Shown: positions 8,703 to 51,568 of the stretch, in pieces
How the letters are laid out: every line of letters begins with the position of its first letter
Numbering within the stretch: position 1 is the first letter of the stretch
Assembly: GCA_039096225.1 (NCBI GenBank)
Contig: JBBPEB010000009.1
Span: 1,391,001 to 1,455,000 of the forward strand
Source of the DNA: Blastocystis sp. Blastoise
Taxonomy: Eukaryota > Sar > Bigyra > Opalinata > Blastocystidae
Reading direction: 5' to 3'
DNA: 64,000 nucleotides
The notes under the pieces: model-generated
Database searches by the model: none
What the model saw: the letters and a program-made list of their open reading frames with translations, nothing else
What the model was told of the DNA's origin: nothing
Made by a program: the position numbers and the translations under genes

Positions 8703-11700
8703 TTATAATGGAATTCGAGGAATGGAACTATTTTGGATTTGTTCAAGTGGAATGAAAATTCGTTGATTTCCATGATTATTTTCATTTTGATGTCTATAAA
8801 ATAATGGACAATAATTATGATTATTATTTTCATATTGATGATGTTCGTCAATATATAAATTAATATTATGATTTATATAAAAATCATTCTTTTTCTCTTC
8901 ATTCTTTTTCTTAATTTGATGTATAAGGAATTTTATTAATATATATAATAATAATATTCCTACAAAAACATACATAATAATAAACAAAATAGATGTATTA
9001 TTTGTATTAACAGTAATATAACTATTTACTAATTGTATTGAAGTTATATATTGTAAATATATATATTGATTTTCTTTACATATATTAAGAAGAGTATCAT
9101 TTGAAGTTTTTATATATTGATTATAATAAGGAAGAATCATTTCTGCATAAGAATAACTAGTTTTTAATCCTATGATTACAACAATACCATTATTTATATT
9201 AATATCATTATTATTTTGAATATCTAGTATATATAAAGAACGAATAGGTTTGTTAATAAGATTTAAAAATGTATCAAATAAAGAAATAAATTGAAATTGA
9301 GATTCAGGAATAGTTAATTGTCCTTGAGTTATATTTGTAATCATTAATTGAGAATATAAAATAGATTCATCATTTTTTGTTAAATCAAAAAAATCTGTAC
9401 TTTTACAATTTGAATTTTCAATACGTCCCCAATAAGCAGTATTTCCACGGGAATAGCAAGTTCTCCATTGTATACCATATTGATTTAATGAACAAGATAA
9501 ATAGACGGTAGTACCTAATTCAACTCTATCCCAAATACCATCTTTTTCACAATATAAAGAAGAAATAGAAATAGAAATTTCAAATGTGTTTTTATTACCT
9601 TTAGAATTATATACAGTAATAGTATATATATTATGAATTCTACTATTAAATGTACCATAAATGATACCTGTAGTAGTATTAAAAGAGACAGTAGAAGGAA
9701 GTGAAGGAGATATAGTAAAATAGGATATTTCTATACCTATAACTATAGGAATAAAAGGATCTATAAAGAAACCTATATAACTTTCTATTGTAGAAAATGG
9801 ATATGATAATATTGGGGGTTTTGGAATACAATTATTGGTAATGTTTCCCCAATAAGGGGATTGTGCAGGTATACAATCACGTGATTGATATCCAGTATAT
9901 AACTCTGAATTTGAACATGGAATCGTTTGTGTTTCTCCAGCAGGAATACTATTCCAAGGAGATTGAGTAGTACATTGATTATTATGAATAAGAATGGTAA
10001 CAGGTACAGTAGTATTTTGGTTTTCTTTTATTAAAGTTATATAAAATGTAGTTAATGGGAGAATAACCGTGGGAATACCATATAATGTATAATAATTATC
10101 TATAAATAATCCATTAGGAAGAGAAGGTGTAATAATAGGAAATTCTTTATAAGTACTAATATATATAGGAGTAAGATTTTGAATAGGAATAAAAAGAGTA
10201 CTTTCAATATTATAATATGGATAAACTAATATAGGTAAAGTTTCTTTACAATCATAATATACTTCACTCCATGAAGGTGGATTCGTATTTTGACAGAAAC
10301 GTACTCTATTTCCTTGTTGATTACTATTTATACAGGGTAAAAGTGCAGTTTTATTGATATCTGTTTCTGGCCAATCATCTTCGGTTACACATTTAGAAAA
10401 TAATATTGTTATACGTAACATAGATTCAGAAGAACCTCCAGAATTATGTATCGTTACTAGGAAATTAGAAGATCCTAAAGAATTAATAGGAGTTCCTGTA
10501 ATAATACCAGTTGTACTATTCAGATATATACCTGTAGGAAAAGATGGTTTTACCGTAAATTCTGCAAGTAATCCTAATGATGATACTGGTATAATAGGAT
10601 ATATAGGAAGATTTGTATAAAATTTATATGAACTATGTGGATATTGAAGAATAGGTTTTTTAGGTGTACAATAAGAAATAATAGATGACCATAAAACATT
10701 ATTATTTTTATAAATACAAGATCGTTCAATATAACCTTCAAAATTATCATCAAAACAAGAAATTGTAGCAGTTGAATTCGAAGGTGTTTCAGGCCAAATA
10801 CCATCAGCTCTACAATTTAATTCTGTAGCTACTAAAGATAATGAACTTTGAATCATTCCCACGGGATTTGAAAATGTGAATATATATTTAGTAAAAGAAT
10901 AATCTTCAATATATCCATATAAAAGTTGTTGTTCTAATGAATATGTGAGTGTAGAAGGAAGAGAAGGAGTAATAGTAATATTCATATATAAACCTTGAAT
11001 AATAATAGGAATAGATATCCATAAATATGTTTTAGTAGAATAAGTATTAGGTATAGAAAGATCATAAGGAGGAGAAAGAATACAATTTGTTTTAATTGTA
11101 TCTTCTAAGTGGTTTCCTATACATAAGCGAGAATAACTACCTATATATCCATAAGGACATGATTTATAAGATAGATTATTATTAGTAGAAGAAGAAAAAT
11201 CATCTATACCTTCACAATCTTTAGGTACATATGTATAATAAAATTGTATACTAGTTAATTCAGTATATAATGTAGTTGCTTGTATGTTATTATTATAGTT
11301 ATTATTATTATTATTATCTGAGATATCTTTATTATTATCTGAGATATTATTATTATTATTTGAGATATTACTATTATTTGAGATATTACTATTATTATTA
11401 TTATTATTATCTGAGATATTATTATTATTATTATTATTATCATCATATAACATTTGTTTGCTTTCGCATTTATAGAAAATAATTCTATATTGATCAGAAG
11501 CTAAATCATTAGGAAATGAGAATGTAATCGATTGTTGATCTTCTACAATAGAATAACTATATATAGAATGTATAGTTTTCCAATTATTATGAATACTATC
11601 AAATACTTCTAAAGACCATGAAGTAGGATATATATAATTTAAATGTCCAAGTATAATAGTATATTGAGTCACTATATATTGTTGACCTTGAGTAGAAGAG

Positions 11701-13431
11701 AGATATATAGTAAGACCAACACAAGAAGTAGAAGTTATATACGTAGTATTTAAAGAAGTAGATAGAAGAGAAGTAAGAATAGTTGTCAGGATAGGTTGAG
11801 ATGAAGAAGTAATTGTATATATAGGTAGAAAAGTAGGTTTCGTTGTTGAACCCATTGGATTAATAATAATATCAAAATCATTATATTTAGGTAAAGATTG
11901 ATATTTATGTAATTCAACAGAAATCAGATTAATACTGGATTCAACTTGTTTCCAAAGATTACGATTATGTAGATCTATAGTAGTTCTTACTATATGTGTA
12001 TATTGATATTCTTTAGTAGCACAAATAGAAGAAGAAGAAATAGAAGAAGAATCAGAGAAAGTATTATCAAAATACTCATTTATATCTTCCATATATATAT
12101 TCTTATTCTTATTATTTATATATGTGTAACAATGATTATCATTTACATTCATATTAAATCGAAAGATTTCTATATTATTCAAATATACAATTATACCTGA
12201 ATAAATATAAAAGATCAAATCTAATGCTAATATTGACGAATATACAGAAGAAGAAAGAGTTATAGACGTTCGATAATATTGTACGGATACCTCAGGATTA
12301 GGGAATTGGGTAGAGAAACTTTTAGGCCATAAAGTATCATCAAAGCCAATTGTGTTCCATCCAAGAGGGGGATCTATAATAGTATTCCAATAGGACCATA
12401 TTTGCTTTCCTTTTTGAATAAAAGGATTTAAATAGAAAGGAATAAAATCTTCAACTTGTCCTTTCTCTAATGATTCTCTTAGTATATTTATATCATTCTC
12501 TAAGGTTATGGTTATATAACTATTTTCCCATGTTTCTTCACTATTTGAAAGTATATATAATATATAATCATCAGGAATTAAACAATACGTATGATTATAT
12601 TTCATTAGTGTATTTGGAATAGTATCATTAAATAATAAATTGAATGATGGATATTGCAAGATAGAATAAGAAGTAGGTTTTCTATGTTCAGAAAAACTGA
12701 AATATAATGCAAATGAAATACAATTATTCTTTAATGAAGTTGAAGGGAGATATAAAGTAGGTGGAACTATATATATATATGAGTAAAATATTTTACAATA
12801 ATAATAAAAAAATATATATATGTAAATTATTTACAATAATAATAAAAATATAAAAGTAAATTATTTACAATAATAATAAAAAAAATATATGAATGCAATA
12901 AACATAAATATTATGATAATATACTATTGATTGAAGCTGTTAGAGAATCGTTGATATTATAAAAATCATTAATTGATTTTGAAAACAAAAGATTCGATGA
13001 GTCATATAAATAAAGAGTAGACTGTATAGATTCATTATTTGTATTGCTATATATTTATAATGATAGAGAGAATAACATATTATATATAAAAATCTCCAAA
13101 GTAAGTTAGATAAAAATGATAGATATATTTATATACAAAATAGAAATAGTAAATGTATAGGAAGATGATGGAGAAACACAAATTGAGAAATTTGAAGTGT
13201 TTGCTGTTGATGAAATGATAGTTTCTTCGGGTATATCTTTATCATATATATCTGGACTTCTTGTCTCATATATCTTTGAATAGAACGACATATAATTTTT
13301 GTGAACAATAACGACATTTAATTCTTTCTGTGTTTCAGAGCATAGCGTATAACCTAAAATATGTGATTTGATATAATAATATAAAAATTACCAGTAGAGA
13401 AAAGAATGAAGAAGAACAGCAAGAAAAACAT
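8703..13431 (-). CDS. surface protein A: HormR-like / putative-Ig repeat type I membrane protein
   Basis: Unnamed large cell-surface protein. Four exons: 13431-13392, 13353-13137, 13046-12925, 12766-8703; 1,480 residues. Exon 1 encodes the signal peptide MFFLLFFFILFSTG. About residues 245-330 form a galactose-binding-like jelly roll (GWNTIGFDDTLWP...YYRTS...IVYLNNIEIFRFNM), followed by a discoidin-like stretch interrupted by polyasparagine encoded at 11290-11450. Then come about five cysteine modules of hormone-receptor (HormR) pattern, C-x-x-D-x-W-P-x-T...G...C...G...R-x-C...W...C, alternating with He_PIG-type putative Ig modules (TPSLP-x-G...TGIITGTP). A SEA-like domain, a transmembrane helix (FIIMYVFVGILLLYILIKFL) and a basic, Asn/His-rich cytoplasmic tail complete it. 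It is divergent from surface protein B. Adhesion or receptor activity is inference from domain types only. Family assignment rests on recognisable motif spacing. Confidence 0.85.
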
Positions 13432-14891
13432 CTTGTAGTAATAAGCTTTCGATATAAAAGACGTTTTGTAAGAACTTCTTATAATGAAATGATATAACAA
13501 AAAACTTGAATTCTTATTGAACAACGAAATAATAATACTTTTAATTAGAAAGAATTATATGTAAATAATGACGGTTATTATTAATTAATGCTGCCATTTT
13601 TTGTGATTCACAAAAAATTACATAAAATGATAACTTCATGAGTATTTCATTTCTGGTTATTAAAATAATATTTTTTAAGTTTCCTTTATAAAAAATTCAA
13701 GATATACTTGATATTAGTTCGTTGAGAGACAGCCTTATGATATTTTTATATTTATTTTGACACAACAGTGAATTGTCTTGTTGTTAAAGTTATGAAACGA
13801 TGCTTAGAAACAAGTTGTGAAGCATTCTGATGTAGTTATCTATATTTTTCAATGATTAATATGTATGTATAATGTGGTTTCAGCACACATGACATAGGAA
13901 ACTGTTAGGAAATTGTAAGTCAATTGTCTGAGATTCAGTAATTAAGTAGAGCAAGATGATAAACTTGGAATAGTTGATAACTTAAAAATTCAATTGACTT
14001 CACTAAAATTGTAATTGTTCTTGTTACATTTAAGTGTATATATCAAGCTCATTACACTTAGTAAAAACACAAATTTGAAGTATTATTTATTTTGAAAATA
14101 GACAGTGGTGGTTGTTCTATTATGATGAAAATACTCGCTTGTTTATAATTTTATTGATATATAGAGATACATCAATTCGTTAGAGTATTAAATGATCGTC
14201 ATTAATTAAAGGTTATTCAAATATTCATTATACTAAAAAATAGGTATGATGAATATGATAGGCTGAAGGATCTTTCTTTGCGATCGGATTGGTAGAAATC
14301 GGAGTAATCCATAAATATTCTTTTTATTTTTTGTTTCGTTTTATTCTTGAATTACTAAAAGACATCTATTGTGCTATTGTAATATAGAAAATAATCTCAC
14401 CACAAGATTCTATGTTTCTCCACTTCTATTTGTTTTTTTTTGTAATTTATTAGGGTGAAAATTGTTGTTTGATCATTTAGTAAATTATCTGAAACCTTTT
14501 GTACAATAGGACGATTAATTTTTAGTTTTGATGTTTAGTTTAAATTAGAAAATGGTAGTTAATCAAACAAATAGAGATTAAAATAAATGATTTAATTGTT
14601 GTTTTTATTTATTTTTTGTTGTAAGTCCACAAGAGTCAATGGAATAAGTATATAGGATGAGTGAATAATTCATATTATTCTTTAAATAATTTAAAAGTAG
14701 TTTATGAATTGAAAAAAAAGACAAAAAGTACAAAAATGAAATAATCATGGAAAAATTTATAATTAAATAGGGTTGAATAAAATAACCAGAACTGATGAGG
14801 ATTTATGGAAAAAAGTGAACAGAATTTTTTTATTATAGATATCTAGCCTTTTAAAACAAGATTAATATTTAGTTATCGCAATTAGTTATCA
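13432..14891. promoter_or_regulatory. divergent promoter region between surface genes A and B
   Basis: This 1.46-kb spacer lies between the start codons of two head-to-head paralogous surface genes. It is more complex than other spacers (mixed words with C and G, few (TA)n runs). That contrast would fit control elements, but I cannot point to a defined motif. No open frame with coding character was found. Confidence 0.45.
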
Positions 14892-17722
14892 ATGAACTCA
14901 GTGAGTATTATAGCAGTTTTATTACTGTTGTTGATTGGTGTTCATGGTATGTTCATTGTTTTGTTCTCATTGTTTTATTTAATTTAGGTGTTTACCGATG
15001 TGACCCAGGGAGTTATGAACTTATGGTAGGAATTAAATCTATGAATTTCTCGATGTTCAACGGTGTACATGTTTCACGAAAGAGTTTGTCTTCTTTGGTG
15101 CCTCTTCCATTTAGGAAAAGTATTAAGAGTGCTGATGAAATGAGTTTGATATCATTTTATTCAGATTGTGTAGGTTTTGATGATAATTTTATTTTGGTTG
15201 TTGAAGATGTGTAAGTGTTTATTTTATCTATATAATCATAAAATATATTTCTAACTATAGAAATGAAAATAATGTTGAATGGAACTGTGAATTGACCTGT
15301 AGTGTAGATACAGTAATGGTCGTAGAGTTTTCATTAACTAAATCACTTTTTTCGAATTCAAAAACATTAGAAATCAATGTCCCAAGTATGTTGTTCTGTA
15401 CATATAATAATAAGAAGATATTAAATTAAAAAAGAATATAATATATTAAAAAATTGTAGAAATAAAAATAAAAAAAATATATATATAGTGGATCATTATA
15501 GAAGTATATTAAAATCATGGTATATGAATGATAGTTATCAATATTCTTCATTATGGTCTACTATATCTTATAATAATTCCCCATGGGTACTTTATGATTC
15601 AATTGATTTTCCTTTTTCTTCGTTAATCACATCAAATAGATATTATAGACAAGATTATATACTTTCAAATAATGATAAATATATAGATATTAGTATTTAT
15701 ACTTCACAATCGTGTAGTCTTTATATTAATGGAAAAACAAATTATAACATATATAATTCGTATATATATATTTAATTATTATCTTTTTATTAAATAATGT
15801 TATATATTATTATTAAATATATATCTATAGGAATCCATTAATTAGTATATCTAATTATAATCAAAGGTTAACTATATATCAATATAAGTATATTTGTTAT
15901 TATATTTTATGTCTATATTTAGTTCATTCTATACTTTTTTAATATATAAATGTATATATTATTATCTATTTCTATAGATTCATAATAAGTGTTTCTTCTA
16001 TTTATTCTATTGATATATCAAGAAATATATCTATTGGAATAGAATTTCATTTTGAAAATCCTAATGGTTCTATTCTTTTTAAAGCTAGTATTTCGTCATT
16101 TTCACAACAAAGTATATATATATTATATTATATATATATTTTTTATAACTAATTCATATATATTTTATATAGAATATCTTTGCTATATATCATCATTAAT
16201 ATCATTATCTTCTACTTCTTCTTCTATTACTCCTCCTCTTCCTTCTAATAATATAAATGGATCCTTAAATACTATAAATTTTATACCTTCTAATTTTACT
16301 TATGGTTCTCATACATTTACTTTATATTTATATCAAAATGTTTTAATATATGTAAATGTTACTGGGAATAATATAAGTTTTTCAAGTACTCCTTCTCTTC
16401 CTAATGGCTTATATTTTGATGTACAAGGTAATATATTTGGTATTCCTACAAGTATTATAGAATATCAAAGTTTTGTTATTACTGCTTTAAATGAATATGG
16501 TCAAACAACAGTAACTATATTATTACAAGTACTTATTCCTCGATGTATACAAGATAATGAATGGCCATTAACAAATAGTGGAGATTCTATTATTTTATCA
16601 TGTTCAGATACTATTAATTATATAGGAAATCGTAAACGTGATTGTTTATTAGGTTATCCTGCTATTTGGAGTGAAATTAATGATACATGTATATATAAAC
16701 CACCTATATTAACATTATATTCTACTATTATTAATGGATATCAATATGATACAATAAGTCCATTTATGTTTCAAATAATTGGTCAAAATATATCTTCTGT
16801 ACAAATTGAACCTAAATTACCTTTAGGTTTAATATTACAAATAGAAAATTCTATTATATATGGTATTCCACAAGAAACTTATGTAGGTATATTATATTTA
16901 AGTATAAAAAATCCTGGTGGTGTAACTACAAAAACAATACAAGTCAATATTATTAGTAAAAATTGTACATCTACTGAATATTCTTATATATCTTCTTATT
17001 GGCCAGAAACAGCACGTGGTTTAACTGCATATATCAATTGTCCTCAAGGTCAAATGGGAATACAATCACGTGCGTGTATTATTAAAGATGAATCTTATTA
17101 TTGGGGTAAAATAGATCAAACACATTGTTTTATTTATAATGATGAAGATCAACCAAATGATGATGAAACTTATATATTATTTTCTATTATTTTAGAAGGT
17201 ATTCAAAAAGTATATTTTGGTATACCTTCTATATATGAATTGTTTCGTAGTTATATAGTTGATATATTATCTACATATACTATAAATGATTTAGATATAC
17301 AAATTATTGATTATCGAATTCAAACTAGTAATAGTACTTATGTTAAATTTAGAATTACTGTATATTCACATTTAACTAGTGATATTACAAAAGTATTATC
17401 TTATTCTATTAATGGAAGTACATCTTTATTAACTACTAAATGTAAAGAATCAAATAATATATATTTACAACAAATTACTTCTACTTATATTTCTACAAAT
17501 GGTATTACATATATTAGTAATAATATGAATTCTTTATATATATTAATTATTGGAATTTCTGTTATTATATGTATTACTATAATCATTATCGTATTTATTA
17601 CTGTTATGTATAATAATATTAAATCTCAAAATAAAAGAAGAAGAAAACATCAAAAATATTCATCTCGTATTATCACAAAATCTCAAGTTATTCTTTTTAA
17701 TCCAAATCTACCACCAATTTAA
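14892..17722 (+). CDS. surface protein B: HormR-like / putative-Ig repeat type I membrane protein
   Basis: Smaller paralogue of A and C. Seven exons: 14892-14946, 14988-15210, 15261-15385, 15489-15759, 15831-15887, 15978-16111, 16173-17722; 804 residues. Exon 1 is the signal peptide (MNSVSIIAVLLLLLIGVHG). A cysteine-containing N-terminal region is followed by a galactose-binding-like module around 140-230 (YYRQDYIL...CSLYINGK). Then come two putative-Ig modules (STPSLPNGLYFD...GIPT) alternating with two HormR-like cysteine modules (CIQDNEWPLTNSGD... and YWPETARGLTAYINC...). A SEA-like membrane-proximal domain, a transmembrane helix (LYILIIGISVIICITIIIIV) and a short basic tail ending NPNLPPI follow. 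Introns cluster in the 5' half. The most plausible role is adhesion or signal reception. Ligand and pathway are unknown. Confidence 0.85.
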
Positions 17723-18732
17723 ATATCTTATATATATATATTATTATTTTATTATTATTTACTATTTTTCTAATAATAAAGTTTTCTTATATTTATTAAA
17801 TATAATACATATATATATCATTTTTATTTTCTTCTTTTCTGTTTTTTTTTTTTATTTAATTCTTCTTTTTTATTTTTATTAATACTCTATATTATTTATT
17901 ATAAACTCATTTTCATTTTTTCATTTAAAAAAAAATATTAATTCTCTTCTTAATACTATATATATATTCATATATATAATATTTCTTTATCTAGAGAATT
18001 ATTCATATTTAAATTTTTTTTTTCTTTATAAAAATCATTTTTTTTTTCTATTTAAATATTCAATAATTTATTTATCATGCTTTTTGCTATGTGTCTGTCT
18101 CAATTTATGTGTTGGATATATTCTTATAGATATTATTTCATCTATATTAATCTTTTTGTTTACTATAGAATACAATAGTACACTTTCTTTTTATCTTTGT
18201 TATCTTTCTTGAATGCAAATATGTTCTGTATTTCTCATTTCGTTATCCAAATTCGTCTGTCTTTTTGCTTATGAATCATCTCTTTTATTTTCATTATCCA
18301 ATCGTGTTTCTTTTATAGTTAATTTCAATTATTTTAAAACATTGTTTTGCTCTAATTATATATATTTTTTACTATTCTATTAGAATCTACAAAGCATATC
18401 AATAGTCTAATAATAGAAATTATATTGTTTTCAAATAAACAATGTAACAATTAATATTGAAGCACCTTTTATTCTTTCAAAAAAATATAGAATCCTTTCG
18501 TTAGCAATCTCATAAAGATTATCAAAAATTAATAACATGTAGAAGTGACTTCAGATGTAAAAAAAAAATAAAATTTTTTTTTTTAAATTCATATTGAAAA
18601 CAGATTTATATAAAGAGTCGTTTTTGATAATTCCCGTAAATACTCACAGAATATACGAAGTTTTTAAATGATCATTTGTTTATTCAGATTTATATACTTA
18701 AATCAACTAACTTAATTAAAATATATTTCAAA
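17723..18732. other. intergenic region before PPP4R2
   Basis: A 1.0-kb spacer between two genes on the plus strand. The left part has many T-runs, expected for a 3' untranslated region. From about 18080 the sequence is more mixed and probably contains the PPP4R2 promoter. No RNA gene or open frame could be supported. Confidence 0.45.
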
Positions 18733-19462
18733 ATGAATACAGAAGATATCGAGAAGAAGCTAGCTGAATTAAAGCCTAGTGATCCTTTACCTGAAGATTT
18801 AGATAACGTATCTTATTTATATATCGTTCAATAACTAATATAAATATATAAATATATATAGATTATCGAATCTATTTCCATTAATGGAATTAGCAATTAC
18901 CCCTGGGATACTCTTCAAAAGCTTTTAACTGAAAAGACAAGAAGAGTATATATTTGATCATTATTTATAATTATACACTCTTTTTATGAAAAATTAATAA
19001 AAAATATCATTTTTTTTAGTCTTTAAATCAATCAAATAAAATGTATCCTTTTAAAGCTCAAGATGGCAAGAGTTATGATGATCAAATCAGTGTAATTTTT
19101 GATGAATTAGAAAAACTAGAATCAATTCCTTTTACCATTCAAAGAATATGTGAATTATTAACAGAAACAAATGGAATCAATGTTTATAAGAATACAAATA
19201 AATATATTATGGCTTTACAAAAAGTATTTGTTTTTTTTTAAATTTTTGATTCTATTTATAGTGCTATTCTTATATATATATTAAATTTTATTTATTATTT
19301 TATATTTAGGTTCTTAATATCTATTTATCTGCTTCGACTTTATATAAAGAATCTCAACCCATTGTTAATTTACCTGTATATATATATATATATATATATT
19401 TATTATTCATTTAATAATTTTATTTTATATATTTTATTAATTATATAATTTATATTTTGATT

Positions 19463-19493
<31 letters not shown>

Positions 19494-19670
19494 GGGAACA
19501 ATGCCTATGTCTTTAGATCGTATATATATATTATATATATATACTATTAATCTATTTATATATATATAAATTCTATGTCTATTATTTCATTATATATTTC
19601 TGTATTACTATTTCTTTATATAGAAGTTCCTATATCTGATTTTGATCCTGAAACGAAAGCTCCTTGGTAA
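18733..19670 (+). CDS. PPP4R2: protein phosphatase 4 regulatory subunit 2 (core domain)
   Basis: Regulatory/targeting subunit of the PP4 Ser/Thr phosphatase complex, which acts in the DNA damage response, snRNP maturation and the cell cycle. Six exons: 18733-18807, 18862-18945, 19020-19223, 19310-19375, 19495-19519, 19624-19670; 166 residues. The family signature SIPFTIQRICELLTE sits at about 88-103, followed by the Tyr...Lys-Tyr...ALQKVLNIYLS segment that matches animal and fungal PPP4R2. The helical N-terminus contains the expected Trp (YPWDTLQKLL). Human PPP4R2 is about 417 residues; this protein keeps the core and lacks the long acidic tail, ending ETKAPW. The fourth and fifth introns carry long (TA)n tracts. 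No PP4 catalytic subunit lies in the window. Identity rests on one strong motif plus flanking agreement. Confidence 0.85.
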
Positions 19671-20084
19671 TTATTTTTTTATTTTTTTTATTTTGTTTTT
19701 TTTTATATTCATCTATATATATAGAATCATTTATTATTTCTCTTTATTTTTATTTTTTTTTAATATTCTATATACAAAATATGTATTTTTAATCTATCCA
19801 TTTTATATAAAATTAATTTTTGTTTTGCTTATAATTTAAAACATTTTTTTTTATATTTTTTTTTTAATTTTTTTTTTAATTTTTTTTTAAATTTTTTCTT
19901 TTCTATTGAATTAAATTAAAAAGTAAACTAAGAATTAAAATAAAGCAAACGTAGAAGATGATCAGTTAAGAATTAACATAAATAAAATTAAAAAAAAAAT
20001 ATTTTAAATAGAAAAAAAAATAGTATTCGATAAAGTAGAAACCTGATCATTCAATCAAGACACAGTTTCCACTTTTGAAAGGAA
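19671..20084. other. intergenic region, PPP4R2 to cyclin
   Basis: A 414-base spacer. It starts with T-rich stretches (19671-19910) and becomes more mixed after about 19920. The start of the next gene is uncertain, so part of this stretch may be 5' leader. Confidence 0.4.
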
Positions 20085-24189
<4,105 letters not shown>

Positions 24190-25396: not shown

Positions 25397-38396
<13,000 letters not shown>

Positions 38397-38621: not shown

Positions 38622-39346
38622 ATGGACTCAGGATATTATGAGAATCTGAAGGATCAAATTGATAAATCAAAGGTTATAGTGCAAAATTGTGTTGATCAAC
38701 CCTTGTTTCGTATTTCAAAAGGAGAAGAATATGACTTTTCGGTAACAAGTCGTGTTGATGATCAGATTATTATTGTTATACCATTTAAACAGAAAGTACA
38801 GCTTTTCTCTATTTCTATTCATTCTCAATATGGTGGTATTTTATATTTTTTTGTAATTTTTGATTTGGATATATATAATTGTTCTTTTTTTCTTCGTAGA
38901 AACATGTCCTAAAACGGTCAAATTATATAAAGACGAACCATATATCTCATTTATGAATGTGAATCAATATAAACCTACATCAGTATGTTTTTTTTTTTAT
39001 AAATTTGATGATTGTATTAAATAGTAATATAATATAATATAATATATATATATGTAATTTGTTTTAAATATATTGAATTCTATAAAGACAATTGATGTTT
39101 CTGAAGAAACAGTTTCAAAACATTATACAACGATCTTGAAAGAATATGACTGGAAGAAAATAACTACATTATCTGTATGTTTTATTTATTGTTTTTTTTT
39201 TTTATTTATTTATTTATCATATTTATCATTATTATATATATATTAAAAAAATTTACATATATATATAGATATTTGTTGAGAATAGTTTTGGTAAAGAAAA
39301 GACTATTATTGATAGTATTTCTCTATATGGAAAACTATATAACTGA
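38622..39346 (+). CDS. PITHD1: PITH-domain protein
   Basis: Small cytosolic protein made of one PITH domain, the proteasome-interacting module found in TXNL1 and PITHD1. Four exons: 38622-38835, 38900-38982, 39088-39174, 39269-39346; 153 residues. Supporting motifs in order: VDQPLFRISKGEEYDF, DDQIIIVIPFKQKVQLFSISI (the two core strands), CPKTVKLYKDEP, the acidic/Thr segment with ISFMNVNQYKPT, and TTLSIFVENSFGKEKTIIDS followed by ISLYG. No thioredoxin domain (CGPC) is present, so it is PITHD1-like rather than TXNL1. It ends with TGA, the only clear TGA stop among the genes here. The gene symbol is by family; a divergent PITH-only paralogue is also possible. Confidence 0.9.
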
Positions 39347-39678
39347 TTACTATTTAGTCTATATTATATACTATAATAAAAATAATTATTAAGTTTTCTA
39401 TTTTTTTCTTTTCATAATGATATTTTAGTTCTTTTTTTTTTCTGTAGTTATTAAAATAAATATTTTGTATTTCAATATATATGAACAAAACATTTTATTA
39501 TGAAAGCAGTTATGAAACTAATAATACAGAAATGAAAAAAATAAAACATATAAAACTATATAAAGAGGAAAACGGAAAACAGAAAATATTTACGGTAATA
39601 ATATAATTTATGAAAAAAGAAATATCTAATAAACAAAAAAAAATTAATAAATGAAAAAAACATATATATATATATATT
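39347..39678. other. short convergent intergenic region
   Basis: A 332-base spacer between facing 3' ends of the PITH gene (+) and the glycosyltransferase-like gene (-). Nothing beyond A/T-rich untranslated sequence is visible. Confidence 0.5.
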
Positions 39679-42153
39679 TTAAAATATATATTTAATATTA
39701 TATAATTTACATAATAATAATCTTCTATGCATTTGATAAACACTATTTGTTTTTGATATGATTAGATCTTGATTTACTAAGAGCCAATCTATAGGTTCAT
39801 TGAATGTATTACAATTATTAGTGATATTATAATGATATAATAAAGGAGTAATAAGAAGAGGAGTAGAAGTTGTATTCACAGGATTCGTATATATAGGTAT
39901 ATAACACGTTTTATTTAATAAACATGAAGTATATAAAGGAATAATAGTATCACGAATAATAGGTATTTTATAATTGAATCCAATTATAGTTATAGAACAA
40001 CTATTTTTATTCAATACTGTATTTTCATAAGGAATATGAAAATAATTCAATATTTTCTTAGATATCGTTTTTCTGATATTTTTATTGGGTAATCCAAGAC
40101 TCACTATACCTCTATTATTTAATTCATTCATATGATTAAAAAATAAATCTTTTATTTCTATAGAAGGATCAATCCACCATCCTTTTCCTTCTGTTTCTTT
40201 TAATATACTTAATTGTATATAGGCTTGAATTGCTTGAAAATCAAATTGATTATTCTTTTTAGTAAATATACTTTGTTTAGATAAATCTAATTTACGATAA
40301 AAGGAAGGTAAATATATACCACGATCTGTTCGAATACGATCTAAGAATAATAATGTTTCTATAATCAAACTCATTCCTTTTATATCTATTCCGAAATCAA
40401 TAAAAATAATAGGAATATCTATTCTTCTTTTAATTATAGAATCTAATAGATTTATTGAAGAATGCACTTGTTCTGATGTTGCTCCTGTTATTATATACAT
40501 ATCATTCTCATCAAATATCCATTTTGGACATTTTGTTATTTTTATACATGGCGGGAAGTAACTTGGAGTGAACTCAACGTAATCTATAAAGCATATAATA
40601 TTCTTTTATAGATATAATTTTATATAAAATTTTAATGTATTGAATAAAATATGAAATATAATGAATATGTAAAAAAAAATAAAAAATAAAATAAAAAATA
40701 AAAATAGCATGTTAATCATATATATATATCTTTTAATATATACATAATAAATAGAATCTATTAAAAAAAGTATTATATATATATATATATATATTATTAT
40801 ATATACATTATTATTACAATTATATACTATTACATGTATATTATATATATTATTATATATATTATAATAATATACATAATACAGTATCATTGACACCTAC
40901 AAATGGTAAAGAATCATAATCAATAGGAGTAATAGCTAATAAACATTTGTCACAAGGTTTGTAAGGTTCAATATCTCCTGTATCTACAGTAACTACATGT
41001 TCTTCATAAAATGTAGGTAATTGTTCTATTTGGTAATTAATTGTCGATAGTTTTTGAGCTGTATATAAAACAATAGTGAGAAAGTTAGAAAAGTAGATTA
41101 TTTATAAAAAAAAAGTGTTTTCCTTGAAAAAAAAACTATGTTATTCATGAATGTATATATTTGAATAATTATATAATAATATCTAATTTATAAAAAAAAG
41201 TGTAGTAAAGTAATATACACCATAAATAGATAATAATAATAATATTATAAAAAAAAAGGAAAACACCGTTAAATATATTTATAATAAATAATTATTAAAA
41301 AAAGAAAAAGAAATAATTATTTAAAAAAAAAAAGAAATAATTATTTAAACAAGAGAAAACTATTATTTACGCATAGTATAAGTATCTCTTGAAGTGACTT
41401 GCATATTCTTAGGAATAGGAGAACCATCAACTCTTTTTAAATAACTGAACGGAACTGAAGAGGAAGAGGAAGTCTTTTCAACTATAGAAAAAGTATGTGT
41501 AACAAATATATAATTAAAATAGAATCTTCTATATTAATAGTATAAAGAAAATAAAAAATAAAGCTTATTATAGCATAAGATAATAAAAACATACGAGGAA
41601 AAGGATCTGTTGGAATATCTGTTTGAATATTCTATAGAATTATTTAATAGAAATATAAACAATACTAAAATATTAAAAAACTAAAAAAAATACAGTTGAA
41701 TTTGTGACTTCTATATTATATATATATAAAGTCTCTTTCTGCTTTCGAATCTTTGGATAATCTTTGTAGATATCTATAGTAAAATAATAAATAGCATGAA
41801 TTGCAACAAAAACAAATAAAATATATACAATTTTTCTTGATACATTCAGAATAGTTGTCTCCCTTCTATAATTATAGCACTAAATAATTATGAAACTTAT
41901 TTACATACCATTCGAACACATGAAGTCAAGTTAATTTGCATTTGATTGATTGGCATGCTGTCTAAATAAACTCAAGATAGTTCAAAGATGCTTTGAATAT
42001 ATTGTTATGTATTTCACAATATATATAAAAAAAAAGAAGCATACATAGAGCAACATCAGCGAATCGTATGTACAAAAGAATCAGTAGTCCCCAACCCATA
42101 AGACTCCATTGTCTTAGATATCTTGGGAAAAAGCCATCTATGTATTCATCCAT
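39679..42153 (-). CDS. type II membrane glycosyltransferase-like protein
   Basis: Predicted Golgi-type, single-pass enzyme-like protein. Eight exons: 42153-42045, 41961-41909, 41865-41829, 41773-41694, 41631-41595, 41481-41371, 41058-40876, 40583-39679; 504 residues. The cytoplasmic start MDEYIDGFFPRYLRQW is followed by a transmembrane helix (about 17-36, GWGLLILLYIRFADVAL), a stem with an NLTSC glycosylation site and CX10C pair, and a Ser-rich stretch. The catalytic-type domain has YIITGATSEQVHSSINLLDS, then IDIPIIFIDFGID, and ends near YQMHRRLLLCKLY. This resembles DUF1647-like nucleotide-sugar transferase relatives (VTAASSNHF...YDLGL). A classical DXD motif is not clear. Exon 6 could end the gene at a TAA just after ATGCGT, but a GTAAAT donor there joins in frame to exon 7, so I treat it as one gene. 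The enzyme family is uncertain. Confidence 0.7.
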
Positions 42154-43877
42154 CAATAAATAATAGCAGAAACACTTATTCTATTTATTAAAAAATATGG
42201 GTGTGGTTATTCTTTTGGAAACAACGGCATTTATGGAGAAAAAGATTGGCGTATTGTTTCAGACTTTGTTGGATTTCAAATAAACTACTAAGGGTAGGAA
42301 TCCTACCTAACAACATTCTTGTTATTCACATAAAATACGATAAGAATACGAAAAGAATTGTTCCTACTACCTAAGAACGTCTGTAATTCTTTTTTTCCAT
42401 AAAAAAAAATGATTACAAAAAACCGAGAAATTTTACAATATGTTTTATTGTCTTACATAGTTGATTTCTATTTTTTAAATTTTTATGAAAAATTATTATT
42501 TATGTGTTAAATGATTATTGTGATAGTAAGGAGATGTTAAAGAAATTATATATATGCATCAAAATGGTCTTTGATTGTTCAAACTTCTTTTAAAGAAAAT
42601 CCTATTTCATTCACAACATTATAGAAAGTAGTGAAATACTGTATATATATGAATTATGGTGAAATATAGATATAAAAACCATGAAATGAAAAACACGATC
42701 GTTATTCAAACATTAGAATCTATTCAATATAGTCTACCCTTAGTGTCCAATTCATTCAATGAATTGAAATAAGGTAATTAGACAATAATATTTAGTAGTA
42801 TCAGTTTTTTTAAATGTATTTTGTGAGAATAACATTAAATAAACGAAACGGTGAGTTTGATTTTTATGCAATAGTAGCTTCTATAAACACTACTCATCTT
42901 GAAATAATAGATCAACAAATAAAAGAGTTCCAAACTGCTTATCTATGTGTTTTATGATTTATGCTGTTAGCTGTATCTATTCACTGTGATTCTGTGAAAT
43001 GTGAACTCATATCTAAAGTTCTTTACAAAACAAATTCACGAATGATGAAATTATTTTATTAGTATCTCAATTATCATTTAGCTTATTGCAATTTATCTAA
43101 CTATTGGAAACTGAATAAAATTCGTTGTTCCACTTATTGTACTCATTCAATTTTTTTACACGCTTATTGTTATCTATTGTCTATATTGTTCAAAATTCGT
43201 AATATAGATCTTGTTAAATAGGATGTCAATCATACACTCATTGATCTTATAGAAATCAATGCCTTTTTAGCTTTTTGTAATATAAATATATTTTTAGCAT
43301 GTTACATCTCTTTTGATGACTAAATAATTGCTAGAATAATAAAAACTACTAAAGCAGTTTTCACTAACAGGTTTTAAAACAGACGAAGAAAAATATCATC
43401 ATGTTCTCCACTCATTTGTTTTTTTTGTATTTTTCATTTTGTTAATTTTTCATTTTTAGCATATATATCAAGGATGTTTTTCACAAATCAAAAATTATTA
43501 TTTTCTCCAAGATGAAAAAAAATACGGTACTTGTGGGAAATGACGCACCTCATGTCATTCACGTTGTATTCATTTTTAGAATCGATCTCGGGGATAATTC
43601 CTATGATATTACTTTATGAAAAACGTATAGAATGAGTTCATTTCGGTCTGTCAAGCGAAGCTATCCAGTAATTTTAATTGTTTTCTCTACAAATCAATCA
43701 AATAATGTATTATGAAAAGATCTTGTTTCCCCATATTCGTTTCTATTCCATTCATTTCTACTAAAGTTTCTCTTTACATGGGGTAGAGTCAGTAACAAAA
43801 ATACTTCAAGTTTTTAGTCATCAATACTAGAAAATGGTGATGTACATTTAACATATTTATTTTTAATCTAATTCTGA
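42154..43877. promoter_or_regulatory. long divergent upstream region of the glycosyltransferase-like gene and surface gene C
   Basis: A 1.7-kb spacer, the largest in the window, between two head-to-head starts. Like the A/B spacer it is more mixed in composition than other gaps, with few (TA)n runs. Open frames are short and lack coding character. It probably holds the promoter of surface gene C, but no element can be named. Confidence 0.45.
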
Positions 43878-46800
43878 ATGAAACTTAGTTTAATCCTTTT
43901 ATTCATCCTTTTGGGTATTTTTATCTTCTTTATATTGTCATGTATATATTTTAATTAGGTGCTGCAATTGATTGTGCAACTCCAAATGTTATTGTTAAAT
44001 TTGATCGAAAATACGGAGGTACTGCTCGAGAAGAACGTCTGAAGATCTATGAAGGACCTTATTCGGAAGGTAATCTTGTTGCTGTAATCGATGGAAACAA
44101 TATGGCAAACATGCTGAAGAGTTACGAATATTGTTTAAAGCCCATGATGCATAGTCTTATTGGTACTGATGGGTATATTTATGAATCTCTTTATATATAG
44201 ATAAAATTTTAAATAATGTATTATTTCTATAGTGGTAACTCAGGTTGGTCTTCTGGTTCTACACTTACTGTATCTATTGGAGGCGTTACTATCTTATATG
44301 ATACACTTGAAAGAGGAAGTTTCACCGAATGGACAATTTATCGTATATATATTGTATTATATATGATTATTTTTATTTTTTATTAAATATGTTTTATTTT
44401 TATATTTTATTTTATAATTAATTCTTATTTTATTATATATTTAAACTTTATATTTTATTATATATTTAAATTTTATATTTTATTATATATTTAAATCAAA
44501 TTAATATTATATTAATAAAACTTTATATCTATAGCTTCTTATGCTCTTCCTAAGTCTTCTCAATGGAAATATTCGACTGCTGTTCAATCTGATTCTACTT
44601 GGACTCAATCTACTTATGATGTTACTTCTTGGTCTACTTATTCTAGTGGTTCTTTTCCTACTACTATAGCTTCAACTACTCGTTATTATCGTACTACTAT
44701 TACTCTTCCTGATCTTACTGATTTTGCTACTTTTGAATTAGGTATTAATGCTAAAGAAGGAATGATTGTATATATAAATGGTCAAGAATTATTCAGAAGA
44801 AATATGGCTGATGATGCTGTTTTGGGAACTACTCTTGCTACTAATGAAGATACTGCTTATGCTTATAGAAGAATTACTCATTCTATTAAGAAATATTTAA
44901 GTGCAACAAATCAAGCTGTTATTGCTGTTGAAATCCATCCTGCTGCTACTACTGTTGCTGGTGATGATTCTTTTGATGGTTTCTTTATTCCTATTTATGG
45001 TACTTGCTCTAAACGTACTCATGAAGGTGTAGCTTCTGGTCTTCCTGTAAAAACAGGTAATGAATCTGCTGATAAAGCTTTTGATAATAATAGAGATACT
45101 AAATGGTTTACAAATCCTTTACCTGTTTCTCTTACTTATCAATTTAATGATGATAGACGTGAATGGATTAGTAAATATGAAATTATTTCTGGTAATGATT
45201 CTCCAGGCAGAGATCCTAAAGATTTCACTTTATCTGGTTCTAATGATAATGGTGTTACTTGGGATTTATTAGATATTAATGCTGCTGTTACATTCTCTGC
45301 TAGAAAGGAATCGAAAATGTTCTTAATTCCATCGAATGCTAAAGCTTATAATATGTATAAAATTGATGTTACTACAAACAAAGATCCTTCTGCTGAAGGT
45401 TGCCAATTTTCTGAAGTTGAATTTTATGCTTGTAATACGGATATTATTACTGATTTTGTCTATGAACAATCTTCTTATACTTGGTATAAAGACTTAGATA
45501 GTGTTTATTTATCTCCTCATTCTTCTGGTTTAAAGACTTTTGCTCTCACTTCTCCTACTACTCTTCCTGAAGGTCTTACTTTCAATCCTACTACTGGTGA
45601 AATCTATGGTACTCCTACTGTTGCTTATACTGGTTCTTTTGTAATTACTGCTGTTGATGTTATTACTAGTCAAACTGTCACTTGTACACTCTCTATTACT
45701 ATAATTGAATGCGATGGACTTAATAATATACATATACAAGTAATAAAAGCATCTGGTGGCAAAACTCCATGGTCTGAAATAGTAACTATTTATGATTCTA
45801 ATAATAATATTAAATTCACAGCTACTGGATTAGAAGGAGGTGACAGAACATTTGATATATGTTTACCTGCTGCTCTATATACTTTAGAAATGAAAGATAT
45901 TGATTCTGATGCTTGGCATTCTTCTTCTTCTTTAACTATTAAATTAATAGAAGCCTATGATTCCTATACTATATTTAAAGATACTCTTGTGGAGAATGCT
46001 ATTTCTACATCAAAATTAAATCTTCAATATTTAATTGAACGTCATAATCCTAATGTTCTTTGTTATACTATTGATACTGCTCTTCCTACTAACTGGTATA
46101 CTACTAGCTATACTCCTGATACTAATTGGACACCTTGTCTTGCTCTTGAAACTAGACCTACTTCTCCTGTTCGTACTCAATTCTTTAGACATACATTTAC
46201 TGTTACTTCTAAAACTGATATGCATATGGCTGAACTTCGTCTTAAAGCTGCTGAACCTGTTGTTGTTTATATTAATGATAATGAAGTATATAGACATGGT
46301 CTTCCTACTGGTGATATTACTACAACTACTATTCCTACAACTACTTCTACAAGTGCCAATACACGTCGTACTACTATTGATATTAGTAGAATTAATATAG
46401 GTACTAATACTATTAGTATTGCTCAAGTATATCCTGATGGAGTTACTTTACCTGTAGAAGTTTCTTTTGATTTCTCTTTAAGATTAGAAGCTACATCTGC
46501 TACTCAAAGTCATACATGGGGAATGACGGCTACTGGCCCTTCTAGAAGTGGTGAAGGACCTACTCTTCTTATTGATAATAAGTATTCAACTAGATGGATT
46601 TACGATGCTCCATCTGCTACTTTTGATCCATTTACTATTTCTATTTCTTATTCTAATGCTGCTCAATATTCTTATATTAATAAATATTGTTTTATTAGTA
46701 ATTTTGATGTTCCTCAAGCTGATCCTTCTGATTGGACTATTCAAGGTTGTAATAATGATGTTTGTACTCTTTTAGGATCTGAATCCAATGTTATGTGGAG

Positions 46801-49800
46801 AGCTAGAACTCAACGACAATGTTTCTATATGAATGCTCATACTGAATCCTATCATTCGTATAATATTATTATCTCCAAGAATGTTGGTTATGGAATAACG
46901 GCATCAAATGCACTTGCTGAAATACAATTATTAGCTGTTGACTTCAGTACTGTTATCGCATCTCCACTTAGTTACACTCCAAATACTATTGTTGGCTATA
47001 AAGATGCAGATCTCTCTACTATTACTCCTGTTGCTAACTATCATAGTTTTAGTATTATTGGTACTACTCTTCCAAATGGAATCTATATAGATAGTAATAG
47101 TGGTTATATTTATGGTATACCTACTATTTACTCTTCTACTACTCAGTATACTGTACAAGCTTATAATCTTCAAGGAATCGCTTCTACTACTACTATTTCT
47201 ATTACTATATCTGGTTGTTCATATCCTAATACTATATTTAAAATAAAAGTATCAAATCCTGATTATAACTATGGTGAACAAATGGGATTTGAATTAAGAG
47301 ATGGTACTACAAATGTATTAATTGACTCTAGAAGTTATTTCCCTAATTATTCTACTACTTATTATAGTTATTGTAAACCAGAAGGTAGTTATAAACTTCT
47401 TTTATTAGATGAAGCTAATGATGGTTGGGGTGGTGCTACTATTGCTGTTCTTTATAATGATAATACTCAAATAGTCAGTTCTGGTCTCACTACAAATCAA
47501 GCACCTAAGACTGTTGCTTTTAATATTAATATTTTATCTTCTGCTTCTTCTATTACTTGGACATATTTAAATAGTAATACTATTTCTGCTCCTACAGATT
47601 CTTCTTGGACTACATTGTCTTATACCAATTCTGAGTGGTCTTCAGGTACTATTGATATGTTTACTGCTCCTGTTGGTATTACTCAATATTATAGAACGAT
47701 ATTCTCGGTTACAGATATTAATAATTTTATCAGTTTTACTTTAAATATGAAATTAATGGCTGGTGCTGTTGTATATATAAATGGAATGGAAATAAAACGA
47801 TATAATATGCCTGAAGGTACTATTACTTCAACTACTACAGCTACTTCTGATTATGTTACTGTAGAAACTATTTCAGAAATATTCCCTCTTCAATTCATTG
47901 ATATTTATCTTGTAGAAGGTCAAAATGTGTTAGCTATTGAAACTCATAAAGGTTCTATAGATTTAACTGTATCTTATTTCAGTGCTTCTGCATCTTTTTC
48001 TTCTAATACTGTTAATATGGTTATCAATGGTGTTAGTGATGGTGCTAATGAAAATGGAAGTACTACAGAGAATATAGCTAAAGTATTTGATGGTTCAGTT
48101 GATACTAAATGGTTATCTCCTGCAAAATGTGTAGGTGCTTGGGCTTCTTGGACTTATAATAATAATCAAGTAAAATATATTGATTCTTATAGTGTTACGA
48201 ATGCTAATGATTGTAATGTTAGACATCCTTCTGGTTGGGTATTAGAAGGTTCTAATGATAATGGTTCCACTTGGACACTTGTTCATACTGCTGAAAATCA
48301 AGTATTTACTGCTTATAAACAAACTAAATCATTTGATTTCATTCCTACTCAACCTTATAATTGTTATAGAGTTACTTCTACTGAATGCGCAAATCCTGCT
48401 ATTTCTGGAGATCCTTCTGGATGTTCTAATAGTGATATGCAATTATCTGAAATTTCTTTTAGTCTCAAGAGATTAGATGGTCTGTGTTCTGCTTCTAATG
48501 GTTATTCTGCTACTGCTAATGGTGAATATGCTTATAAATCATGTAATGATGGTACTGATAATAAAAAGAAAACACTTTGTACAGATGGTATCTTTGGTGC
48601 AGAAGATACTTCTTTATGTGCAGCAGTACCTACTTTTACTTATCCTAATTCTCTTTATACATTCACTATCAATACTGCCATTACTCCTCTTGTTGCTACA
48701 CTTACTGATATAACTGGTTATACTTGTACTTCTTCTCCTTCTCTTCCTACTGGATTAGTATTAGATACTACTACTTGTGGTATTTCAGGTACTCCTTCTG
48801 TTCCTCAAGATTCTATTCAATATACTATCACTGCTACTTCAGGATCTATTTCTGTATCTACTTCACTTTCTATTGTTATTGAAAATGTTGTTGTACCTGT
48901 TGTTGTTACTATTACTTATAGTCCTAATATTATATCTGTCAATACAAATATTGCTATTTCTGCTATTCCTACTGTTACGGGAGGTACTGTTTCCACTTGG
49001 ACTATTACTCCATCTCTTCCTGAAGGTATACTCCTCGATACTACTACTGGTACTATTACTGGATCTTCCACTGTTTCTTTAGACTCTACTCTCTTTACTA
49101 TATCGGCTATTCCAACTACCAGTACTACTCCTGTTACTACTACTATTACTCTTATTATTAGTACTCCTTCAGCTATTCAATGTCCTCTCGATGGTGTTTG
49201 GCCTGCTACTAATGCTGGTGTTACTGCAATAACGTCATGTAATGATTCTCAAAAAGAAGGACAAATCACTAGATTATGTGCTGCTACTGGTGTTTGGGAA
49301 AATATTATTGATAGTTGTACTTATATTATTCCTACTGTTACTATTAACCCTTCAACTATTATTGCTTATATTAATGAACAAGTCATAATTACTCCTGTTA
49401 CTCAACAATTTGTTACTTCTTGGAGTGTTACTCCTGATCTTCCTAATGGATTCACTATTGATAGTTCTACTGGTATTATTACAGGTACTCCTACTACTGT
49501 ACAAGTTGCTACTACTTATACTATTACTGCTACTAATCCTACTGGTAACGGTCAAACTTCCTTATTCTTAACAATTAGTGCTCATAATTGTCCTATTGAT
49601 GGTGTATGGCCTGCTACTAATGCTGGTGTTACTGCTACTTCTCCTTGTACTGATTCTCAAAAAGAAGGACAAATGACTAGAGTTTGTGATGCTACTGGTG
49701 TTTGGGAATCTCCTGTTGATGGTTGTACTTATATTATTCCCACTGTAACTATTACTCCATCAACTGTCACTCTATATACATCTGAATCATCTACTATTAC

Positions 49801-51568
49801 TCCTGTTACTCAACAATATGTATCTTCATGGACTGTTACTCCTTCTCTTCCTAATGGATTAACCATTAATAGTTCTACTGGTATTATCTCTGGTACTCCT
49901 ACTACTATTCAAGTTGCTACTATTTATACTATTACTGCTACTAATCCTACTGGTAACGGTCAAGCAACAGTTTCTATTACTATTAATTCTCGTACTTGTG
50001 CTGCTGATGGTGTTTGGTCTGTTACTAATGCTGGTGTTACTGCCACTTCTCCTTGTACTGATTCTCAAAAAGAAGGTCAAGTTACAAGAATTTGTGGTAT
50101 TACTGGTGTTTGGGAATCTCCTGTTGATGGCTGTACTTATATTATTCCCACTGTTACTATTAGTCCATCAAGTGTTACTTTATATACATCTGAATCATCT
50201 ACTATTACTCCTACTACTCAACAATATGTATCTTCATGGACTGTGACTCCTTCTCTTCCTAATGGATTAACCATTAATAGTTCTACTGGTATTATTACGG
50301 GTACTCCTACTACTATTCAAGTAGCTGCCACTTATATTGTAAAAGCTACTAATATTGTTGGTTTTGGTCAAGCTTCTATATCAATTACTATTAATTCTCG
50401 TACTTGTCCTTTAGATGGTGTTTGGTCTACTACTAATGCTGGTGCTACAGCTACTTCTCCTTGTACTGATTCACTTAAAGAAGGACAATTAACAAGAATC
50501 TGTGGTCCTACAGGAATATGGCAATCAGCTATTGATAGTTGTACTTATAAAGCTCCAGTAATTACTTTAGATCCTCTTTCTTATACTTTCTATAAAGATG
50601 AAAATGCTGAAATTATTCCTACTGCTGAAAATCAAGTAAACTCATGGATTATTTCTCCTTCTCTTCCTATTGGTATGAATTTAAATAGTAATACAGGTAT
50701 GATTTCTGGTTCTCCATCATATATACAACCTGCTATTCAATATACATTATCTGCTCTTAACAGTGATAAGAGTGCACTTATTTCTGTATCTATTACTGTT
50801 ATTTCTCGTACTTGTGATGTTGATGGTGAATGGCCTGCTACATATGTAGGTACTACTGCTTATATATTATGTGAAAATAGCTTAACAACTTCTCGTTCTC
50901 GTGCTTGTACTCATATAGGTAATGTTGGTCAATGGGAAGCTGTCAATACTACTACTTGTTATAGTATTTCTAATGAAGATAAACCTGTTCAAGATCGTAC
51001 ATTTATTCGTTTACCTATTCATTTCTCTGGAGTATCTTCTACATTCTTTGATGGTATTCATATTCATTTACTTCAAAATGAACTTGATAATTTCATTGCT
51101 ACTTTGAATATACCAAATACTAAGATATACATTGAATCTATACAAAATAATCCTTCTGTTTTCTATGCTGATAATACTATTATTACTACACGTGTTGAAT
51201 GTGATGAGTCTCAAAATACTGTTATTAATGAAGCTCTTGTTCAGTTTATTAATATGCCATTATTAAATGCTCTTAGAACTAGTTCACCTGATTATAATCA
51301 AGTTGTTTCTATTCTTGTTACTCCTGAAGATGTAACAGTTACTAATTATACATTCTGGAGTACTACTGCTATTGTTGTGACTGTTATTGTTATTATTGTT
51401 GTCGTTGCTATTATTATTGTTGCAGTTTATCTTGTTATGAACAAGAATGGTAAAAAAGGTAATAAAAAACCTAAGATTGTCAAACCTGCCAACAAACAAA
51501 AAGAAGTTCCTAAAAAAGCAGGTGATGTTAAAGTGAAAGAAGAAAAGAAAACTGTTTCACAAGTTTAA
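43878..51568 (+). CDS. surface protein C: large HormR-like / putative-Ig repeat type I membrane protein
   Basis: Largest member of the A/B/C family. Four exons: 43878-43914, 43959-44172, 44233-44342, 44535-51568; 2,464 residues. The signal peptide MKLSLILLFILLGAA is on exon 1. The N-terminal half repeats three times a set of galactose-binding-like jelly roll (RYYRTTITL...VYINGQELFRRNM), F5/8C discoidin-like module (AFDNNRDTKWF...FTLSGSNDNGVTW) and putative-Ig or beta modules (CLPAALYTLEM...). The C-terminal half has one diverged and five regular HormR-like modules (CPLDGVWPATNAGVTA...GQITRLCAATGVW) alternating with putative-Ig modules in exact 408-base units. A SEA-like domain, a transmembrane helix (~2395-2420) and a Lys-rich tail ending VSQV follow; the tail end fits a class I PDZ ligand. 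Codon use (GCT, ACT, GGT, GTT rich, no polyasparagine) differs from its neighbours and suggests high expression. Adhesion or receptor function is inferred. Confidence 0.88.
49181..51220 (+). repeat. five exact 408-bp units (HormR + Ig) in surface gene C
   Basis: The first cysteine codon of successive HormR-like modules lies at 49181, 49589, 49997, 50405 and 50813, each exactly 408 bases (136 residues) apart. Units two to four are nearly identical over long stretches. The fifth starts with CDVDGEW and diverges, its second half being replaced by the SEA-like domain. Confidence 0.92.

Follow-up and report, generated by a model that had tools for sequence, protein, structure and literature searches.

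A large Blastocystis family of probable membrane adhesins with hormone-receptor-like modules in a repeat stalk

The hormone receptor domain (HRM or HormR, PF02793) is carried on the ectodomains of adhesion G-protein-coupled receptors (GPCRs) such as BAI3 and latrophilin, where it stands beside a GAIN domain and a seven-helix membrane domain. The available part of a 2025 GPCR survey (PMC12716839) describes HRM as largely confined to holozoans, with Fonticula alba as the sole exception, and traces its origin to around the base of Holozoa; stramenopiles are not named there among the groups searched. For Blastocystis itself, 26 genes of subtype 7 with IPR008009 are presented as possible horizontally acquired adhesion genes in the part available of Denoeud et al. 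2011 (PMC3129679). Here we analysed a window of 64,000 nucleotides (contig 3, positions 1391001-1455000) of Blastocystis sp. Blastoise, which its taxonomy record places among the stramenopiles, family Blastocystidae, together with the genome around it (33.3 Mb, 34 contigs). The window contains three genes, A, B and C, whose products carry a cysteine module with the same WPxT..G..C..R.C..W..C pattern as the receptor HRM; unlike in adhesion GPCRs, the module is repeated, alternates with He_PIG (putative immunoglobulin, Ig) modules and is borne on single-pass proteins.

All three genes exist and begin where a preliminary description of the window had placed them, with ATG codons exactly at 13431 (A, minus strand), 14892 (B) and 43878 (C). 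Behind each ATG comes a hydrophobic leader (a signal peptide judged by eye rather than by a predictor) and then a GT intron donor. Their proposed homology was borne out by alignment: the alignment of A with B spans the module array and membrane-proximal part (expectation value (E) 3e-40, 30% over 400), the head of A aligns by BLASTP with the third head of C, a jelly roll plus discoidin domain (E 8e-15, 20% over 397 columns), a short piece of B aligns with C (E 3e-4), and the ends of A and B match that of C (E 3.6e-9 and 1.2e-12, respectively). The common plan that had been drawn for the three genes holds for leader, module array, membrane-proximal domain and single helix; its jelly-roll and discoidin heads are found in C and A, whereas B holds a jelly-roll-like piece only. 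The family thus consists of proteins with a leader, heads, a repeat stalk, a membrane-proximal domain, one helix and a short tail, and at least 75 matches in the genome share the same HRM and membrane-proximal end. A modular adhesion or recognition family, as first suggested, is the likeliest reading; A, B and C are probably three of the many type I membrane adhesins of one large family, with glycan-binding-type heads set on an HRM-He_PIG stalk.

The individual domains were assigned by a Pfam scan of the large frames, with lines kept at E <= 1, and by fold searches. He_PIG clearly exceeds its cut-off of 24 bits in A (50.8 bits, E 2.4e-13, two stretches) and in C (172.4 bits, E 2.7e-51, eight stretches), and the modules have an Ig/cadherin-like fold near that of the bacterial adhesin SraP, in keeping with their earlier description as putative-Ig modules; B gives no He_PIG line, yet its array is homologous to that of A. 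Genome-wide, He_PIG (PF05345) has at least 149 matches (150 scored of 890 candidates). The discoidin module of C has a discoidin fold of the CBM32-like kind, its F5_F8_type_C score falling slightly below the cut-off (27.7 against 28.2 bits, E 3.3e-6, two stretches); A gives no F5/8C line, and a later jelly-roll copy in C (residues 1055-1106 of the frame) matches BetaGal_ABD2 weakly (0.0056). The membrane-proximal domain had been called SEA-like: the strand-helix-strand-strand-helix-strand order of the C model fits that proposal, although no SEA (PF01390) line appears in A, B or C, the fold search barely covers this part, and its profile returns membrane-helix matches only among solved structures. 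One membrane helix is present in each protein, as had been described, by hydropathy and in C also in the model. Syndecan and SieB lines on this helix were taken as composition matches, as was a rifin line (E 0.0012, below cut-off) over the membrane-proximal part and helix. The scan revealed no known intracellular or catalytic domain above cut-off in the three proteins, and no line for GAIN/GPS or a seven-helix domain.

The preliminary description had counted three members, a number ruled out by a search of the same genome with the last 255 residues of C, which match at least 104 places (149 scored of 207 candidates), or 102 on 25 contigs when places less than 5 kb apart are merged. Seventy-five of the 104 begin in HRM and reach beyond residue 185, so that they span the membrane-proximal domain, 24 end before it, four cover helix and tail only, and one has the membrane-proximal domain without HRM; the large frame of B has 117 matches in its own genome, itself included. 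Judged by these matches, 75 is a firm lower figure for the family and about a hundred members are likely. How the stalks grow is illustrated by one member (G000:C13:31000-40900, L069) in which 20 HRM modules follow one another exactly every 140 residues. Of its 420-bp HRM-He_PIG units, nineteen fall into two alternating types that are 88% alike, with copies of the same type identical to two decimals, while the twentieth unit is 40% alike. The identity of same-type units suggests that an 840-bp pair was duplicated recently, assembly artefact aside; stalk length therefore seems to change fast by internal tandem duplication, a trait that would possibly differ between strains.

Several pairs of members have equal scores, namely G000:C10:79951 (-) and C10:96536 (+), G000:C1:381764 and C10:45004, and G000:C13:803944 and C13:1058605; lying on opposite strands, on different contigs or on the same contig, they suggest recent duplication or inverted repeats. 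Many family members have one very long open ectodomain frame, and matches to ubiquitin-conjugating enzymes lie mostly in short frames. Two giant frames of secreted type have near-identical starts, one at G000:C33:569969-596201 (+; L070-L072), with 8744 residues open in the part fetched, and one on G000:C18 at about 36-62 kb (-; L073-L075), with 7594 residues; in the C33 copy, on which the Pfam run was made, HRM and He_PIG are accompanied by LamG_3, PA14, WSC and Methyltransf_FA domains.

We then compared the predicted tails of 63 proteins, comprising A, B and C and 60 members fetched by their 3' ends from the 104 matches, mostly from those extending far to the C-terminus. V, I or L is the last residue in 52 of the 63 tails, or in 49 of 60 without three apparent run-on frames (C33:967649, C33:1026273 and C16:2056077). 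After clustering of similar tails, 29 of 39 end in V, I or L compared with 19.6% of the preceding 25 residues of all 63 (binomial P = 2e-13, ignoring the remaining kinship). C-terminal hydrophobic residues serve as endoplasmic reticulum (ER) export signals or as PDZ ligands, and the aliphatic end may accordingly be a sorting signal, for ER export or as a PDZ-type ligand. The stop codon is TAA in 62 of the 63 predicted tails.

The identity of the cysteine module was evaluated at the level of single domains. The pattern occurs four times in A, twice in B and five times in C, and a scan of 26 sequences (the frames of A and B and 24 database proteins, gene C among the latter) yielded 131 modules, 115 of them distinct, with none in P0123. 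In a set of 44 modules (42 of 76 representatives and two further modules of gene A), C1, W7, C20, R31, C33, W39 and C46 are invariant, the four cysteines and both tryptophans partly by construction, because the scan required them. Pfam HRM is matched at E <= 1 by 38 of the 44 (best 1.4e-8) and Pfam sushi by six (best 0.008). Against solved structures, the profile of the 44 modules places complement C2 on top (2.8e-8), a value summed over three weak sushi repeats, ahead of BAI3 (8.1e-4); the best single domain is nevertheless the BAI3 HRM, with 21.9 bits compared with 15.5 for the best C2 sushi, and weaker matches (all E > 0.1) include the HRMs of CRF receptor 1, PTH receptor, latrophilin-1, glucagon receptor and others. 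In the genome, HRM has at least 138 matches at E 0.001 (best 37.4 bits, some below cut-off; 150 scored of 381 candidates), whereas sushi (PF00084) has none at that level (28 scored), a search in which the control genomes also stayed silent, and no sushi line appears in A, B or C. The per-domain scores and the counts of 38 against six modules and 138 against no genome matches make HRM the better name, and sushi, tried as the preferred one, was dropped on the per-domain scores. The absence of HRM chains from the fold-search lists is uninformative because He_PIG fills those lists. Within the window, the Pfam HRM score is well above the cut-off of 26.2 bits in C (61.6 bits, E 9.2e-17, five stretches), under it in B (21.2 bits, E 4e-4) and at no useful level in A (11.8 bits, E 0.32), a weakness that, like the rank of the summed C2 repeats and the six sushi matches, would be expected of a sushi-type or independent four-cysteine module convergent on the HRM pattern. 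Given the scores per domain, we consider such convergence rather unlikely; by its sequence the module is HRM-like, as had been described, rather than sushi, and it is likely homologous to the animal HRM.

Because the discoidin head has a CBM32-type fold, sugar binding is its likeliest activity, in which the jelly rolls may help; ligand and function are what we infer from this. In such an adhesin the head would recognize glycans (of gut mucus, of bacteria or of the Blastocystis coat itself) or a different surface ligand. The alternating HRM and He_PIG modules would form a stalk that extends the reach of the heads by holding them clear of the cell coat, membrane-proximal domain and helix would serve as the anchor, and the tail would direct the protein to the surface. 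Mucin binding by Blastocystis, differing between isolates, is reported in the part available of PMC4979897. Three findings weigh against this interpretation. The list of CBM32 fold matches also includes APC10, SUN2 and an intraflagellar-transport protein, and a common fold shows no function; an alignment of 14 family domains was made, and sugar binding is read from the fold. BLASTP against C finds no discoidin head in gene B, just the short jelly-roll-like piece, and with a head so reduced sugar binding cannot be alike in every member. Finally, the background for the tail statistic was the same tails' own residues; as a possible control from other genes, ubiquitin-conjugating enzymes were set aside because introns split them. 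Of the other roles considered, signalling receptors, whose HRM would capture peptides or proteins as it does in class B1 receptors and whose signal would be relayed by the tail or by a partner, are suggested by the likeness of the module to HRM, above all that of BAI3, and by the aliphatic end common to many tails, which could recruit a partner. We regard them as very unlikely: profile searches, run without a positive control, found no 7tm_2 or GPS match in the genome, the three proteins are devoid of known intracellular domains above cut-off, and HRM, being repeated with a period of 136-140 residues in C and in the C13 gene, looks more like a stalk unit than a ligand pocket. Variable coat proteins with immune evasion or antigenic variation as their main job would fit the many divergent copies, the equal-score pairs on different contigs, the identical internal repeats and a slight excess near contig ends (14 of 93 places within 50 kb against 8% expected, P = 0.016; nine places on contigs of unknown length left out). 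This excess is weak, however, with 22 of 93 within 100 kb (P = 0.034) and 27 of 93 within 150 kb (P = 0.13), and large families fit adhesins too, so that a coat appears improbable. Recognition between Blastocystis cells, in aggregation, mating or kin recognition, likewise has a slim chance: stalks of repeated Ig/cadherin-like modules are reminiscent of cell-cell adhesion molecules, but the matches concerned reflect the common Ig-like fold only.

The putative adhesin family described here overlaps with genes already in print. The subtype 7 He_PIG proteins come from the same genus, share He_PIG, in some cases bear a cadherin annotation and were proposed to act in adhesion (PMC3129679, part available); matched by description rather than by sequence, these IPR008009 genes are most likely the same family, and A and C qualify as He_PIG-bearing surface-type proteins of that kind. 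HRM, discoidin heads, the stalk plan, the membrane-proximal domain and the tail are absent from the available account of the 26 genes. The proposal of an undescribed system is thereby narrowed: the He_PIG genes were published in 2011, whereas the HRM module and the whole architecture were not found in print, HRM in Blastocystis or other stramenopiles being likewise absent from the literature covered, part of it judged by title and start of abstract. The family is not mentioned in the available part of the Gentekaki 2017 subtype comparison (PMC5608401). Databases already label these proteins, since PF02793 and PF05345 are annotated together on Blastoise proteins and on the ENA protein P0058 (among the best 120 of 587 matches); in another ENA protein, P0066, the cysteine pattern occurs four times, with a He_PIG line, a discoidin line under cut-off and no HRM line at 0.01. 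A search for family members that started from P0058 returned only itself, which is uninformative on absence elsewhere, since P0050 aligns with P0058 at the same end.

Outside this genus, Fonticula alba, also beyond Holozoa, has HRM on non-GPCR membrane proteins as here, in five or six genes (the available part of PMC12716839 gives both numbers) compared with at least 75 matches in Blastoise, a comparison of numbers and not of architectures. SraP of Staphylococcus aureus and other bacterial He_PIG adhesins share the He_PIG/cadherin-like repeat fold; SraP is wall-anchored and has another lectin head. Among the best 120 of 587 protein matches, bacterial proteins align over a part of the query that includes He_PIG and, unlike the Blastocystis family, carry no HRM label. 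The CBM32 modules of gut bacterial glycosidases (NanJ, CpGH89 and BT3015C, for example) are on enzymes, while here such modules are on a membrane-anchored protein. A tandem-HRM query found no relative in prokaryote contigs, in a search that reaches close relatives only, and HRM was found in none of 38 genomes (of 39; nearly all Bacteroidota, one Chlorobiota) drawn from 80 loci reached through a bacterial He_PIG protein, the control set being silent and the same model giving 138 matches in Blastoise; these genomes need not carry He_PIG, because most loci match just the C-terminal end (about residues 3316-3403). With both negatives weak, a bacterial source of HRM is lowered in standing and not supported by these searches. 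It is quite conceivable, although we advance it tentatively, that a stramenopile relies on HRM as a major component of its surface, at least 75 genes repeating the module along the stalk in combination with a bacterial-type Ig module and heads of CBM32 type, and that the domain either far predates animals, having been an adhesion spacer before its receptor use, or was taken from the animal host by a gut symbiont and amplified. HRM genes by the dozen in a stramenopile bear on whether the domain is ancient, was transferred from host to symbiont or arose by convergence, and the family provides genome-wide, testable candidates for the proteins by which Blastocystis, a eukaryote very common in the human gut, attaches to mucus or bacteria.

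Coordinates of the three genes are collected in Table 1. Gene C is the deposited protein WA158_000803 (P0001, 2464 amino acids (aa)), with a large open frame at 44519-51568 (+; 2349 aa); the model covering its last three HRM modules (m680437a5b368) has a predicted local distance difference test (pLDDT) value of 86.6. Gene A itself is not among the seven deposited proteins found, the nearest being a paralogue, WA158_008276 (P0121), that is 70% identical over 93% of the large frame; the coordinates given for A cover exon 1 (13431 to 13390) and the large frame, which opens at 12830.

Table 1. Features of genes A, B and C in window coordinates.
Gene	Feature	Position	Strand	Basis
A	Exon 1: ATG plus hydrophobic leader (by eye a signal peptide), GT donor after it	13390..13431	-	Sequence and translation; exon end inferred without transcript
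A	Large open frame from ectodomain to tail (1375 aa between stops)	8703..12830	-	Open reading frame list
A	Head: jelly-roll-like, then discoidin-like, Asn-rich insert; approximate limits	11400..12600	-	BLASTP to third head of C
A	Array: four HRM-like modules alternating with He_PIG	9405..10814 (10668-10814, 10248-10391, 9828-9974, 9405-9551)	-	Pattern scan, homology to B array
A	Membrane-proximal domain	9021..9404	-	Match C3:1399889-1400554 to last 255 residues of C, E 3.6e-9
A	Single membrane helix	8925..8990	-	Hydropathy
A	Tail, C-terminal Leu	8706..8924	-	Hydropathy-based
B	Exon 1: ATG plus hydrophobic leader; end approximate	14892..14945	+	Sequence, translation
B	Open stretch with jelly-roll-like piece	15425..15775	+	BLASTP to C, E 3e-4, 30% over 92 columns
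B	Large open frame, 559 aa	16043..17722	+	Open reading frame list
B	Further He_PIG-like module	about 16283-16537	+	Homology to A array
B	Two HRM-like modules, He_PIG-like between	16544..17128 (16544-16690, 16964-17128)	+	Pattern scan, homology to A
B	Membrane-proximal domain	17129..17512	+	Match C3:1407988-1408641 to last 255 residues of C, E 1.2e-12
B	Single membrane helix	17540..17605	+	Hydropathy
B	Tail, C-terminal Ile	17606..17719	+	Hydropathy-based
C	Leader exon and small exons, module with DGGNSGW motif	43878..44350	+	Sequence; WA158_000803 maps to 43925-44350 (tblastn)
C	Large exon, residues 122-2464 of WA158_000803 at 100%	44537..51568	+	tblastn, map 44537-51565
C	First jelly-roll-like domain	44543..44998	+	Model m5090b39bf915, pLDDT 88.4
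C	First discoidin (F5/8C) domain; its fold is that of sugar-binding CBM32 modules	44999..45436	+	
C	First He_PIG module	45437..45709	+	Pfam, model
C	Last discoidin domain	48014..48481	+	Best Pfam F5_F8_type_C stretch, frame residues 1179-1276
C	Five HRM modules alternating with He_PIG, period 136 residues	49181..50959 (49181-49318, 49589-49726, 49997-50134, 50405-50542, 50813-50959)	+	Pfam, pattern scan
C	Membrane-proximal domain, predicted strand-helix-strand-strand-helix-strand	50990..51358	+	DSSP of model m680437a5b368
C	Single membrane helix	51371..51436	+	Model, hydropathy
C	Tail, Lys-rich, C-terminal Val	51437..51565	+	Model, hydropathy-based

Two further frames lie between B and C in the window. 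The frame at 21648-23756 (+) has 702 residues, is rich in Asn in its N-terminal part and by eye resembles a Pho80-type cyclin over a C-terminal stretch, with no Pfam line at 0.001. The other, at 26145-38396 (-), is an uninterrupted frame of 4083 residues, very rich in Asn and Ile and with internal repeats, whose only Pfam line is a weak one for Collagen_mid (8.3e-4, under cut-off).

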